Positions 8,590 through 32,247 of a DNA stretch of 46,897 bases are shown here, piece by piece. Origin of the DNA: Synechococcales cyanobacterium T60_A2020_003. GTDB taxonomy: Bacteria > Cyanobacteriota > Cyanobacteriia > RECH01. The stretch covers positions 1 through 46,897 of the forward strand of contig JACYMB010000040.1 of NCBI GenBank assembly GCA_015272205.1, in the 5' to 3' direction. The notes under the pieces are model-generated. The model did not search any database, had not been told where the DNA came from, and saw only the letters and a list, made by a program, of their open reading frames with translations. The position numbers were made by a program, and so were the translations under genes. How positions within the stretch are numbered: position 1 is the stretch's first letter; each line of letters opens with the position of its first letter.

Positions 8590-10203
8590 ATGAATTCAAG
8601 TTCATCGGCTCTCTACCGCGAGTACCTTCAACATCGATGTCTCCATCTATCCCCTGAAGATTTCAGTACTGCCTTTGATTCCGCCCTTAGTCAAATCTCA
8701 ACCTTTGACTGCGCCGAACCTGAAACGGCGGTCGAACTGAATGATTTTGGCGTCATGGCGTTGATTGAAGCGGATCAAGCAGATGATCTATCCATGAAGG
8801 AACTCTATTTCCAGACTGCCCTTGAAGCCTTTCAGTCGGGTGCTAGAGTTGGAGGCTACCCATTGTGCAATGCCCACTTAGCGATTATGGAAAAAATGGT
8901 GGGCGATCGCAGCGCATCAGGGCAAAGTGCCTATACAGGATTAATCCAGTCTTTCTTGCAAAGCAATCCATCTGCACCTCATCCTCCCTTGGGTCTGATC
9001 TATCTACCTCGAAAAACGGGGATAGGTGCGATTGAAACTGGCGAGATTTTACACGCTGTGTATCAAGCTCGAAATGGTCTAGAACAAGCCACATTAATTC
9101 TAGCAGCCACCCTCTGCGATGCTAACCTTGCCTTCTACACGCCGAATGGATTACGAACCCTACATCTACTTGGACACCTTACACTTCAATCCAGCATCCT
9201 AAAGATGCGTTTGGGGATTGCGAGCTTCTATCAAAATCAACTGGAGGGATTACACTATCTGCACCAGGCTCATACTTTAAATCCTAATAATGTCGCTGTT
9301 CTGCAAACCCTATTTCTAGCATGCTTAGATATCGGAAGTCGTGACGTAGCTGAGCGTTGGCTGATGCATACTCAGCAGATGCTTATGCAAACCAACTCCA
9401 ACAGTCCAGAGTGGTACTGGGTAAATCAACAATCTTTAGAGTCATCCTTTACCTACGTACCGTTTGATGGTCTTCAGCTTGCGGTTGAATCTAGTCTCAA
9501 TAGTATTGTCACGTCCGTGGTGTTAGCCCAAGGAGACTGGTTTGAAGATGAATTAACGTTTTGGCGACATCATCTGCAACCGGGCATGGTTGTAATTGAT
9601 GTTGGTGCTAACGTGGGAATCTATACTTTTAGTGCAGCAAAACAAGTCGGAAGCACAGGCAAAGTTTTTGCTGTTGAACCGTTTTCAGCTTGTGTGCATC
9701 GGTTGCAAGAAACACGTCGTGTTAATCAACTGGATTGGGTGCATATCTGCCCAGGTGCAGCTAGTAATCGCTCTGGCAAAGCTCGGCTTGGCTTAGATAA
9801 AGCAAGTGAACTCAATCAAATCATTGCCGATGATGCGAATCCCTCAGTCCAATTTGAAGAAGTCCAGTGCTTTACGCTAGATGAGTTAGTTGAAAAAGAG
9901 CAGTTAACACGCTTAGACTGGCTCAAAATTGATGCTGAAGGACACGAAATTCAGGTTCTAGAGGGTAGCCATTCTTTACTGACCCAGTTTAGACCCAATA
10001 TTCTTTATGAAAATATAGCTGGCGCGATCCATAAGACGAACTTACCAGTGGCAGAGTTTTTGATTAAAAACGAATATGTTCTATACACTTACCAGCCTTA
10101 CTTTGATTATTTAATTCCGCTCGGCTCGCTTGAAAACTTAAAAGGAAAACTTAATATTATTGCAATTCATCAATCTCGCGTAAACGATTTTTCACAACGA
10201 TAA
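8590..10203 (+). CDS. FkbM-family methyltransferase with a helical-repeat N-terminal half
   Basis: The protein has 537 residues. The C-terminal 230 form a Rossmann SAM-dependent O-methyltransferase of the FkbM type: 'VVIDVGANVGIYTFSAAKQVG' (about 333-353) binds SAM, 'VFAVEPFSACVHRLQ' is motif II, then 'CFTLDELVEKEQLTRLDWLKIDAEGHEIQVLEG' and 'RPNILYENI'. The N-terminal ~300 residues are alpha-helical and TPR-like, with pairs of helices and 'YLHQAHTLNPNNVAVLQTLFLACLDIG' close to a canonical TPR. FkbM enzymes often methylate sugars or other small polar molecules; the substrate here is unknown. It stands alone between two gaps, with its own promoter expected in 8441-8589. Confidence 0.85.
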   Translation: MNSSSSALYREYLQHRCLHLSPEDFSTAFDSALSQISTFDCAEPETAVELNDFGVMALIEADQADDLSMKELYFQTALEAFQSGARVGGYPLCNAHLAIMEKMVGDRSASGQSAYTGLIQSFLQSNPSAPHPPLGLIYLPRKTGIGAIETGEILHAVYQARNGLEQATLILAATLCDANLAFYTPNGLRTLHLLGHLTLQSSILKMRLGIASFYQNQLEGLHYLHQAHTLNPNNVAVLQTLFLACLDIGSRDVAERWLMHTQQMLMQTNSNSPEWYWVNQQSLESSFTYVPFDGLQLAVESSLNSIVTSVVLAQGDWFEDELTFWRHHLQPGMVVIDVGANVGIYTFSAAKQVGSTGKVFAVEPFSACVHRLQETRRVNQLDWVHICPGAASNRSGKARLGLDKASELNQIIADDANPSVQFEEVQCFTLDELVEKEQLTRLDWLKIDAEGHEIQVLEGSHSLLTQFRPNILYENIAGAIHKTNLPVAEFLIKNEYVLYTYQPYFDYLIPLGSLENLKGKLNIIAIHQSRVNDFSQR

Positions 10204-27028: not shown

Positions 27029-27226
27029 ATGGCCACTGAAACTTACCTTAACCATCCCACCTTTGGGCTTCTCTACCGAGTTTGCCTGCTTGAGGAAAGT
27101 CGTGAACTGTTTACGACCCTATACGCCCAGCGACTGTTCTTTGTGGTGACCACCACAAGCGACGGGCTGCAATTTGATCCCGTTAGCCGTTCTGATGCGC
27201 GCATCCTTGTGGAAAGTCGGATGTGA
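27029..27226 (+). CDS. pipX: PipX, truncated by in-frame stops (Tudor-like domain kept)
   Basis: PipX binds the nitrogen regulator NtcA as coactivator and is sequestered by PII. The ORF from ATG 27029 (MATETYLNHPTFGLLYRVC...) contains the Tudor-like domain intact: 'YLNHPTFGLLYR', 'ELFTTLYAQRLFFVVT', 'FDPVSRSDARILVESRM'. It stops at TGA 27224-27226 after 65 residues, whereas PipX is normally close to 89. The same frame continues past the stop with a recognisable C-terminal helix (next entry). The NtcA/PII-binding part is present, so a shortened protein could still work, but the second C-terminal helix would be missing. pipY follows, the conserved neighbour. The upstream in-frame ATG at 27005 is not favoured. 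Confidence 0.8.
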   Translation: MATETYLNHPTFGLLYRVCLLEESRELFTTLYAQRLFFVVTTTSDGLQFDPVSRSDARILVESRM

Positions 27227-27295
27227 ACCCTGCGTCGAGAAGGGGCTTAGGAGTATGGAAAACTTCAAGATGTCCACCGACAGGCATTTCATTAA
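27227..27295 (+). pseudogene. pipX: Untranslated C-terminal remnant of pipX, same frame
   Basis: Reading on in the pipX frame after TGA 27224 gives TLRREGA, then TAG at 27248-27250, then EYGKLQDVHRQAFH and TAA at 27293-27295. 'LRR.G..(x)EY..L....R..F' has the shape of the last PipX helix. The total from ATG 27029 to TAA 27295 would be 88 codons plus stop, the normal PipX length. So no frameshift is needed: only two nonsense positions separate this from a full gene. Confidence 0.7.
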
Positions 27296-27404: not shown

Positions 27405-28091
27405 ATGAATTCTTCCTGGCCAACAACGTCTATTGCCGATCGAATCCATCACATTCGTCAAACAATCCCAGTCTCTGTCCGGCTCATCGCAGTCAGCAAA
27501 CAAGTCTCTAGCGCTGCCATTCGCGCAGCCTACGATGCGGGTGTTCGCGACTTTGCCGAAAGTCGTATTCAAGAAGCGATCGCCAAACAAAACGACCTTT
27601 CTGACCTTCAGGATATAACGTGGCATTTTATTGGACATTTACAAACGAACAAAGTGGCGAAAGCGGTTCAGCATTTTCAGTGGATTCATTCCGTCGATAG
27701 CTTGAAACTAGCAGAATATCTTGATAGGTATTGCGATCGCGCTGATGATGCTCCCTATCTCTGCCTTCAAGTGAAAGTCTTGCCTGATCCAAATAAGTAT
27801 GGTTGGTCGGTCGATGAACTGATGGCTGACTTGCCAAAGTTGGATGCATTGAAACATATCAGAGTGCGGGGACTGATGACGATCCTGCCCTATGGGTTAG
27901 AGGAGGCCACCATGCGCCGTGGATTTCAAGACACCCATGCCCTTGCGGAGCGAATTCGCCAACAGTCCTGGAAACGATTACAAATGCAGGAACTCTCGAT
28001 GGGCATGTCGGATGACTACTCGCTGGCGATCGCCGCAGGAGCCACGATGATTCGGTTAGGGCGCACCTTATTTGGCGATCGCACAGCCTAA
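27405..28091 (+). CDS. pipY: YggS-family PLP homeostasis protein PipY
   Basis: This COG0325 protein binds pyridoxal phosphate and buffers vitamin B6; in cyanobacteria it is encoded with pipX and called PipY. At 228 residues it shows 'VRLIAVSKQVSSAAIRAAYDAG', with the Schiff-base lysine in AVSK, then 'ITWHFIGHLQTNKVAKAVQHFQWIHSVDS', 'VRGLMTILPYG' and 'LSMGMSDDYSLAIAAGATMIRLGRTLFG'. These are all standard YggS blocks around a TIM barrel. It starts 109 bp beyond the old pipX end, in the conserved order pipX-pipY-sepF-proC. Confidence 0.93.
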   Translation: MNSSWPTTSIADRIHHIRQTIPVSVRLIAVSKQVSSAAIRAAYDAGVRDFAESRIQEAIAKQNDLSDLQDITWHFIGHLQTNKVAKAVQHFQWIHSVDSLKLAEYLDRYCDRADDAPYLCLQVKVLPDPNKYGWSVDELMADLPKLDALKHIRVRGLMTILPYGLEEATMRRGFQDTHALAERIRQQSWKRLQMQELSMGMSDDYSLAIAAGATMIRLGRTLFGDRTA

Positions 28092-28993: not shown

Positions 28994-29590
28994 GTGAGCA
29001 ATATATTCACCAAACTTCGGGATTTTGTAGGGCTGAACGACCCCGTTGAATACGAGTATGAGTATGACGAGGTAGATGGTGAGGACTACCAAAACATCTA
29101 TCAAGAAGAGCAGGTGGCTCCTGTCCTTGATGATGAGCCTCGTCGTCGTCGTATTCGTGAGCGATCCACAATGATGTCTACTGAAATAGGAGCAGGTGCT
29201 GCGATGAGCAATGTGATTGGTATGCCCGGTGCGGCTGGCGGAATGTCCGAAGTGATGGTGATGGAGCCTCGCAGCTTCGAGGAGATGCCCCAAGCCATCC
29301 GTGCATTGCGTGAGCGTAAATCCGTTGTTTTGAACCTGACGATTATGGATCCTGATCAGGCCCAACGGGCTGTCGATTTTGTTGCTGGTGGTACCTATGC
29401 CATCGACGGTCATCAAGAGCGGATCGGCGAGAGTATTTTCCTCTTCACACCGAACTGTGTTCAGGTCAGCACTCAAGTAGGTGGCGTGATGGATCCCGCT
29501 ATGCCTCAACCCGCAGTTCGGACGATGCGTCCGGCTACGGCTCCTGCCCCCTCTTGGGTTGCCGAGCAGCAAGTTCGTATGGCGCAATAG
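28994..29590 (+). CDS. sepF: Cell division protein SepF (Cdv2)
   Basis: SepF bundles and anchors FtsZ at the division site; the cyanobacterial version is Cdv2. The 198 residues start at GTG 28994. The N-terminus '[14 protein letters not shown]' is the membrane-targeting amphipathic helix. A very acidic stretch ([14 protein letters not shown]) follows, then a linker. The SepF domain is at about 92-170: '[68 protein letters not shown]'. It lies between pipY and proC, matching other cyanobacteria. Confidence 0.95.
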
Positions 29591-29721: not shown

Positions 29722-30525
29722 TTGGCAACGAAACTTGGAATCATTGGCGGCGGGGTAATGGGCGAAGCCCTGTTATCCCGTCTCCTTTTTAAGGGTACAT
29801 ATGCACCGACGGATGTCTTTGTTAGCGATCCGTCGGCAGATCGTCGTGAAACGCTGGCAAGTCAGTATCAGGTTCATGTGTCCGAACAGAACCAATCCGT
29901 TGTAGATGCAGCCGATGTTTTGTTGCTGGCCATCAAGCCTCAGCTCTTTGACGTAGTTATTCAGGCACTTGTTCGTCAAAACCCTCAGCAGCTTGTGCTT
30001 TCGATTTTGGCTGGCGTTCCCTTGGCGCGGTTGGAAAGCGCATTTCCCAATTATCCCGTTATTCGTGCGATGCCCAATACGCCAGCAACCGTGGGAGCCG
30101 GCATGACAGCGATCGCTGGCGGAACTCACACCCAACCGACTCACCTGGATCTCGCGATGCAGGTGTTTGGCGCAGTCGGAGAGGTGGTGGAAGTGCCAGA
30201 ACGACTGATGGACGCCGTCACAGGACTTTCTGGATCGGGACCTGCCTACGTGGCGCTAATGGTAGAAGCCTTGGCGGATGGAGGAGTCGCGGCGGGTCTG
30301 CCACGGGCGATCGCCCAACAGCTTGCGTTACAAACCGTACTGGGAACGGCGGAGTTATTGAAAGCGTCAAACCTCCATCCCGCAGAACTCAAGGATCGAG
30401 TGACGAGTCCAGGGGGAACAACGATTGCCGGAGTTTCCCACCTGGAACGACAGGGGTTTCGCTCTGCATTGATAGAAGCGGTGAGGGCTGCGGCTATGCG
30501 ATCGCAGGAATTGGGGCGATCGTAA
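29722..30525 (+). CDS. proC: Pyrroline-5-carboxylate reductase
   Basis: ProC performs the last step of proline synthesis (P5C to proline, NAD(P)H). The 267 residues start at TTG 29722, with TTTAGGAGA at 29702-29710 as ribosome-binding site. The N-terminal Rossmann motif 'LGIIGGGVMGEALLSRL' and the C-terminal signature 'GLSGSGPAYVALMVEALADGGVAAGLPRAIAQQLALQTVLG', 'HPAELKDRVTSPGGTTIAG' are complete. The A-SP-GGTT loop holds the P5C-binding Thr. It complements proA in this window. Confidence 0.96.
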   Translation: MATKLGIIGGGVMGEALLSRLLFKGTYAPTDVFVSDPSADRRETLASQYQVHVSEQNQSVVDAADVLLLAIKPQLFDVVIQALVRQNPQQLVLSILAGVPLARLESAFPNYPVIRAMPNTPATVGAGMTAIAGGTHTQPTHLDLAMQVFGAVGEVVEVPERLMDAVTGLSGSGPAYVALMVEALADGGVAAGLPRAIAQQLALQTVLGTAELLKASNLHPAELKDRVTSPGGTTIAGVSHLERQGFRSALIEAVRAAAMRSQELGRS

Positions 30526-31000: not shown

Positions 31001-31990
31001 GCAATCCGTAACAAGGGCAGGATGTCTCCAACGCAGGCTGTATCCTGTTTTCGAGAGCTGGCAGATGCGTTCCATACGCTGCACCAGAAAGGCTTAATTC
31101 ATTGCGATGTTCATCCCGGTAACATTATTCTGCGTCCAGATGGCCAACCTATTTTGATTGACTTTGGTTCGGCAAAACTGTTGCAACCGGGGAGGTTTAC
31201 GGTGACTACAACGGTCAATGAGGGTTTTGCCCCCTATGAACTATGAACAGGGAAATCAAGAGGCTGGCCCTCAGCCGACGCTGGATGTTTATGCTCTAGC
31301 GGCGACCCTGTACTACGCGGTGACTGGCCCAAAACCGCAAGCCTCGATGAACCGTAAAATGTTTGGCGATAAGCTTGAACCCCCCAAGCAATTGTGTAGC
31401 GAGATTCCCAACTGGCTAGATCGAGCGATTTGGCAGGGAATGGCCTTAGAGGCCGACGATCGACCTGCTTCGATGCAAGCCTGGGCTGGTTTACTGACGC
31501 CACCGCAGCCAAAGCCCCTGCCTCAACCTGTCTATTCTTCGCCTCAACCACGTCCCCAACCTGCACCGCAGCCATCAACCGTGTCCTCCACTCCTAATGG
31601 CTCTACCCTATCGAGGCAAGAGTTTCTGAGAGGAGTGGCATGGGGAGGGTTTGCCGGTCTTGGCTTGCTCACAGCTTTTGGCATTAGTCAGTTTTTCAAG
31701 AAGGAAACGCATGATCCAATATTGAGTTCAGATAATGCTCCCTCATCCGCAACGTCTACAGAAACAGGTTCACCTCAGTCGTTTCAAGCGGATTATGATC
31801 AGCTAGAGGAACTTTTGCAGGCAGGGCAATGGCAAGAGGCCGATCAAGCAACCTTGGATCTCATGCTGAAAATTGCGAATCGGGAGGAAGAAGGCTGGTT
31901 AGATATCGACAACATTGAGAATTTCCCCTGCGACGCTTTAGGGAAAATTGACCAGCTTTGGGTGAAAGCAAGCAATGGCCAGTCAAGCGA
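31001..31990 (+). pseudogene. Serine/threonine kinase with GUN4 domain, broken
   Basis: This is the remnant of a cyanobacterial STK-GUN4 protein. The N-lobe is missing: homology starts near 31022 with the helix before the catalytic loop 'GLIHCDVHPGNIILR' and 'LIDFGSAKLL'. The frame then breaks at 31240: CTATGAA is present twice in tandem (31234-31240 and 31241-31247). Removing one copy restores 'GFAPYEQGNQEAGP' and joins the frame that continues at 31248. Next come the kinase end, a Pro/Gln-rich linker, one membrane helix (about 'FAGLGLLTAFGISQFF'), and the first half of a GUN4 domain ('LEELLQAGQWQEADQATLDLML...REEEGWLDIDNIENFPCDALGKIDQLWVKASNG'). GUN4 is cut at about 31980, where IS110-like sequence begins. 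Confidence 0.88.
31234..31247 (+). repeat. 7-bp tandem duplication that frameshifts the kinase remnant
   Basis: CTATGAACTATGAA: two exact copies of CTATGAA. One copy restores the reading frame and the kinase consensus 'APYEQ', so the duplication is the lesion itself. Confidence 0.9.
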
Positions 31991-32001
31991 GGAAGACTTG
32001 T

Positions 32002-32247
32002 ATGAAACCCATCGCACAAGCAAGATCATGTACTGGCGAGTCGGTGGATGTCGGCATTGATGTTCACAAACGAACTTATTCGATAGTGGCAAGGGTGAAC
32101 CAACTGGAGGTAAAACGATGGACAACCGCAGCATCGCCTGAGAAGTTAGGACAGCAACTGCGTCAATTTTTTCCAGAGGCTGAGGTTTATAGCGCTTATG
32201 AAGCCGGGTTTTCGGGCTTTGGATTGCACCGAGAATTAGGGGGCTGA
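32002..32247 (+). pseudogene. IS110-family transposase, N-terminal fragment
   Basis: From ATG 32002 the frame reads 'MKPIAQARSC...VDVGIDVHKRTYSIVARVN...' then 'SAYEAGFSGFGLHRELGG' and stops at 32245. 'GIDVHK' with the first catalytic Asp, and 'YEAG..G..LHREL', are characteristic of the N-terminal RuvC-like part of IS110/IS1111-type DEDD transposases. Only about 80 of the usual 320-400 residues remain. The open frame back to 31975 runs over the kinase/GUN4 remnant. The element's left end must lie between about 31980 and 32002. Confidence 0.8.

Follow-up and report, generated by a model that had tools for sequence, protein, structure and literature searches.

Two in-frame stop codons in the single pipX gene of a fragmented cyanobacterial genome

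The only pipX gene detected in the assembly of a Synechococcales cyanobacterium is interrupted by two in-frame stop codons, and it was probably inactivated or truncated recently by ordinary nonsense changes, a reading held here with somewhat better than even confidence. The gene lies on the window, i.e. the whole stretch of 46,897 nucleotides that was analysed (contig JACYMB010000040.1). The lesions were missing from relatives and no intact second copy was found, as is typical of a recent pseudogene. At 4.02 Mb in 403 contigs and 95.6% completeness, the assembly is fragmented and probably metagenome-derived, and the stops are known from its one consensus sequence; a local consensus error is the main rival to inactivation.

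The interrupted frame and its neighbourhood

The pipX frame counts 88 codons followed by TAA and, unlike the uninterrupted frame of about 89 codons typical of the family, contains two in-frame stops. The TGA and the TAG that interrupt it are 24 bp apart, both in the last quarter of the gene, and the frame continues without frameshift to its terminal TAA (Table 1). The sequence directly 3' of the first stop reads T-LRREGA. A first-pass annotation had placed the two stops and the terminal codon in a single unshifted frame, and all of them were recovered at those positions. Its naming of the gene was likewise confirmed by family models. With X at both stops, the read-through frame of 88 residues matched Pfam PipX (PF12058) over positions 1-86 of 86 with 131.2 bits and passed, with 134.7 bits, the cut-off of 125 of the NCBIfam PipX equivalog (NF045912). 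Residues 1-65 alone scored 111.7 bits against the former and 113.8 bits against the latter, in this case below the cut-off.

Table 1. Position of pipX, its parts and its conserved neighbours in the window
Feature	Position	Strand	Evidence
pipX frame, 88 codons plus TAA, two in-frame stops	27029..27295	+	Pfam PF12058 and NCBIfam NF045912 over full family length
pipX residues 1-65, spanning the Tudor-like domain and the greater part of helix A; longest product to be expected if no stop is read through	27029..27223	+	Pfam 111.7 bits alone; aligned to PipX of PDB 2xg8 and 3n5b; at most 80% identity to relatives
First premature pipX stop, TGA	27224..27226	+	Column is Arg in 93/94 relatives
pipX between the first stop and TAA: last part of helix A, inter-helix loop shorter by one codon, helix B	27227..27292	+	L-R-R, G, E-Y, L-Q, H, Q, F kept; adds 19.5 bits to Pfam match
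Second premature pipX stop, TAG	27248..27250	+	Variable column adjoining a one-codon gap
Terminal pipX stop, TAA	27293..27295	+	
pipY, intact (228 aa), codes for a PLP-binding protein (COG0325); normally follows pipX as its partner	27405..28091	+	Pfam Ala_racemase_N 77.5 bits; beside pipX in relatives
sepF, intact, conserved neighbour	28994..29590	+	Pfam SepF; synteny
proC, intact, conserved neighbour	29722..30525	+	Pfam P5CR_dimer; synteny

The gene was found in the usual context of its family, with pipY downstream in the same orientation, and the order pipX-pipY-sepF-proC is the one known from relatives (PMC5504682). Genes pipY, sepF, proC, acpS and engA were all uninterrupted. A search of the 95.6% complete assembly for a second intact pipX, as had been proposed earlier, returned a single match, which was the interrupted gene itself. 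Both protein partners of PipX were intact in the assembly, namely NtcA (223 aa) and PII (glnB, 112 aa). Four GntR-domain proteins were stop-free in their matched part, none of them being pinned down as PlmA.

Comparison with PipX of other cyanobacteria

The window pipX was aligned with 94 relatives (95 sequences); the relatives with solved structures are the S. elongatus and Anabaena PipX proteins. The modal length was 89 residues (78 of the 95 sequences), and four sequences had 88. The first-pass annotation had taken 88 codons for the usual PipX size; the frame does extend over 88 codons to the family end, but it is one codon short of the mode, with the gap located in the loop that joins the two C-terminal helices. 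Residue 65, the last before the first stop, aligns with L65 of S. elongatus PipX.

The comparison with relatives revealed no stop at either column in any of the 94 aligned sequences. At the first stop, the relatives displayed arginine in all cases except one histidine, encoded by CGC (33), CGA (21), CGG (20), AGA (12) and CGT (7). At the second stop, the column was variable (Q in 33, K in 17, E in 8, A in 8, and others) and lies beside the one-codon gap. The earlier suggestion that both stops derive from C-to-T changes is consequently plausible for the first one, whose column includes CGA, and so is only half supported.

Past the first stop, the positions listed in Table 1 were retained, and the sole conserved tail position that was altered, a T to A change near the end, carries the same change in a few relatives. 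In leave-one-out profile scoring, the tail ranked above 21 of the 94 relatives, i.e. in their lower quarter and within their range. The part preceding the first stop scored above 94 of 94, a biased figure since the relatives had been found via this very part. Judging from the alignment and from the rise of the Pfam score from 111.7 to 131.2 bits, the stretch beyond residue 65 is genuine PipX sequence, and the possibility raised earlier that similarity might cease there can be set aside. This tail is without visible decay, so the lesions are either recent or not real.

Of 390 cyanobacterial genomes that were at least 90% complete, 384 had PipX, so that its loss is unusual. Among the matches listed, the window genome alone had internal pipX stops. 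An earlier set of 59 genomes included two PipX matches with one stop each (TGA in G018, TAG in G036), which are probably natural gene ends. A pipX pseudogene was not encountered in the limited literature searched.

It is worth noting that the three sampled species of one genus, g43 (G061, G171 and G220, 95-99% complete), all lacked a significant PipX match at both protein and profile level, while NtcA was above cut-off in two of them. This genus is a possible natural PipX-less lineage. A PipX match was also absent from G012 and G281, and G207 had weak matches only.

Origin and expected consequences of the stop codons

Several observations point to a recent loss, one of the readings offered in the first-pass annotation and now the leading one, given the absence of visible decay in the tail. 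The lesions look recent because the score of the tail falls within the range of relatives, and a second stop so near the first is consistent with a gene that selection has ceased to maintain. The intact state of NtcA and PII is a counterpoint to pipX loss, and the little decay apparent in the tail sequence would argue against an old pseudogene.

Alternatively, the real gene could be intact and the stops could be consensus errors arising from low coverage at this locus, a mixture of strains or mis-assembly, the genome being fragmented and of metagenome type. We consider this possible, though on balance rather unlikely. An assembly of 403 contigs that is 95.6% complete is compatible with such errors, as are the near universality of pipX, the lack of clear decay in its tail, and the existence of other broken frames, among them frameshifts of single-base type and a lesion close to the end of a contig. 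However, more than 30 other genes on the same contig were uninterrupted. Moreover, it is improbable that random errors struck twice, independently, only 24 bp from each other: about 43,700 codons covered by homology contained 2 other nonsense sites, from which a rough probability of the order of 0.001 can be estimated for a stretch of such size, and of 0.1 for the whole genome. A single bad stretch with clustered errors would nevertheless account for both stops and escape this independence argument.

The remaining explanations accept both stops and retain a working PipX. Selection for a short PipX had been put forward earlier, and no positive evidence for it emerged. A functional 65-residue protein, in which the Tudor-like domain would swap between PII and NtcA while the PlmA branch, dependent on helix B, is cut, is an unlikely outcome. 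The sequence of this domain is very family-typical, albeit in a comparison set chosen by similarity to the same part; PII and NtcA are intact, and PipX 2-70 retains PII binding in yeast (PMC5083789). Yet no relative was seen to have a stop at the same place, a truncation does not need the second stop, and the conserved positions of the tail were kept, so that the truncation, if selected, would be recent. The product would also end at residue 65, while the homologous L65Q and the helix B substitution L80Q both lower PipX levels (PMC10609283). By analogy with S. elongatus, a short PipX maintained by selection is less probable than loss of function, because PipX 2-70 loses PlmA binding and helix mutants have lower PipX levels. 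We give little credence to a naturally truncated PipX that would keep its PII- and NtcA-binding Tudor-like domain and lose its PlmA-binding helix, one branch of the nitrogen network being cut while the other persists. Stop-codon readthrough or recoding, which would yield the full PipX of 88 residues, is highly improbable. Preservation of the frame across both stops to the family end would be in line with it, but two different stops would both need to be read. Recoding was rejected because TGA and TAG are ordinary stops here, closing 7 and 17, respectively, of the 35 intact window genes checked, and because no aligned relative (0/94) shares a stop at either column. A search with Rfam found no known RNA element in the window.

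If pipX was indeed inactivated or truncated by nonsense changes, its translation would end after residue 65, and the product would comprise the Tudor-like domain and the larger part of helix A but lack helix B. The Tudor-like domain of S. elongatus PipX makes the contacts with PII and NtcA (PMC6243067), and PipX 2-70 kept PII binding in two-hybrid assays whereas PlmA binding was abolished in three-hybrid assays (PMC5083789). By comparison with these data, the fragment could still touch PII and would lose PlmA binding. It would probably accumulate poorly, and hence be scarce, because PipX levels fall when helix A or helix B is disturbed; flexed helices have been proposed to stabilise the protein (PMC10609283). 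With the fragment scarce and helix B lost, both the co-activation of NtcA and the influence of pipX in cis on pipY would be weakened. Expression of pipY may also suffer, since a pipX-null strain of S. elongatus accumulates very little PipY (PMC5504682). Loss of pipX is tolerable in principle, because this null strain grows and a few cyanobacterial genomes are without detectable pipX.

With respect to known systems, the window gene resembles PipX (PF12058/NF045912; PDB 2XG8, 2XKO and 3N5B) by its full-length read-through match, its Tudor-like domain, the arginine patch of helix A, the residues of helix B and the gene order. It differs from PipX by its two in-frame stops, an inter-helix loop one codon shorter, and an expected product devoid of helix B and of the end of helix A. 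The engineered S. elongatus PipX 2-70 (PMC5083789) likewise keeps the Tudor-like domain and lacks helix B; unlike the natural fragment, it was made for yeast assays and has residues 66-70. Spontaneous pipX suppressors of glnB-inactivated S. elongatus (R54C, L65Q, promoter) are comparable as natural-type losses or reductions of PipX activity via the C-terminal part, but they arose with PII removed, whereas glnB is intact in the window genome. A natural loss or truncation of pipX in the presence of intact PII and NtcA would test the dependence of the PII-NtcA-PlmA network on PipX, as this protein is nearly universal in cyanobacteria. The event itself would be an ordinary one, namely nonsense inactivation in one fragmented genome.

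Disrupted genes elsewhere in the genome

A survey of about 806 kb of the genome, taken as stretches, covered 131 kb with homology to reference frames of relatives. Five broken genes were counted in these 131 kb versus no lesions in about 92 kb covered in two related genomes, a small excess in a comparison that is not rigorous. Disrupted genes included a GGDEF gene (L160), a histidine kinase gene (L243) and, close to the end of its contig, a CRP-type gene (L170). Lesion candidates on L137 and L229 appeared from their sequence to be antisense frames and were left uncounted. Two additional genes, both outside the reference set of the survey, are broken by tandem duplications of 14 and 7 bp. Lesions of this type resemble genuine mutations more than errors of base calling, which suggests that genuine gene decay occurs in this genome and thereby favours real decay of pipX.

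Concerning individual loci, an Omp85-like outer-membrane gene (named by eye) on L161 (G000:C24, around 9040-9111) has a TGA where a relative has arginine, and a frameshift about 70 bp beyond it. The 14-bp tandem duplication, on L117 (G000:C61, 470-560), shifts the frame of the bicarbonate transporter gene sbtA; the adjacent sbtB is truncated by the end of the contig. In the window, a 90-residue frame at 31975-32247 resembles by eye the start of an IS110-type transposase (GIDVHKRTYSIV), with no Pfam match. The 7-bp tandem duplication, near 31235, splits a serine/threonine kinase-GUN4 type gene (31022-32060) whose kinase N-terminal part is missing, and which represents a pseudogene on the same contig as pipX.
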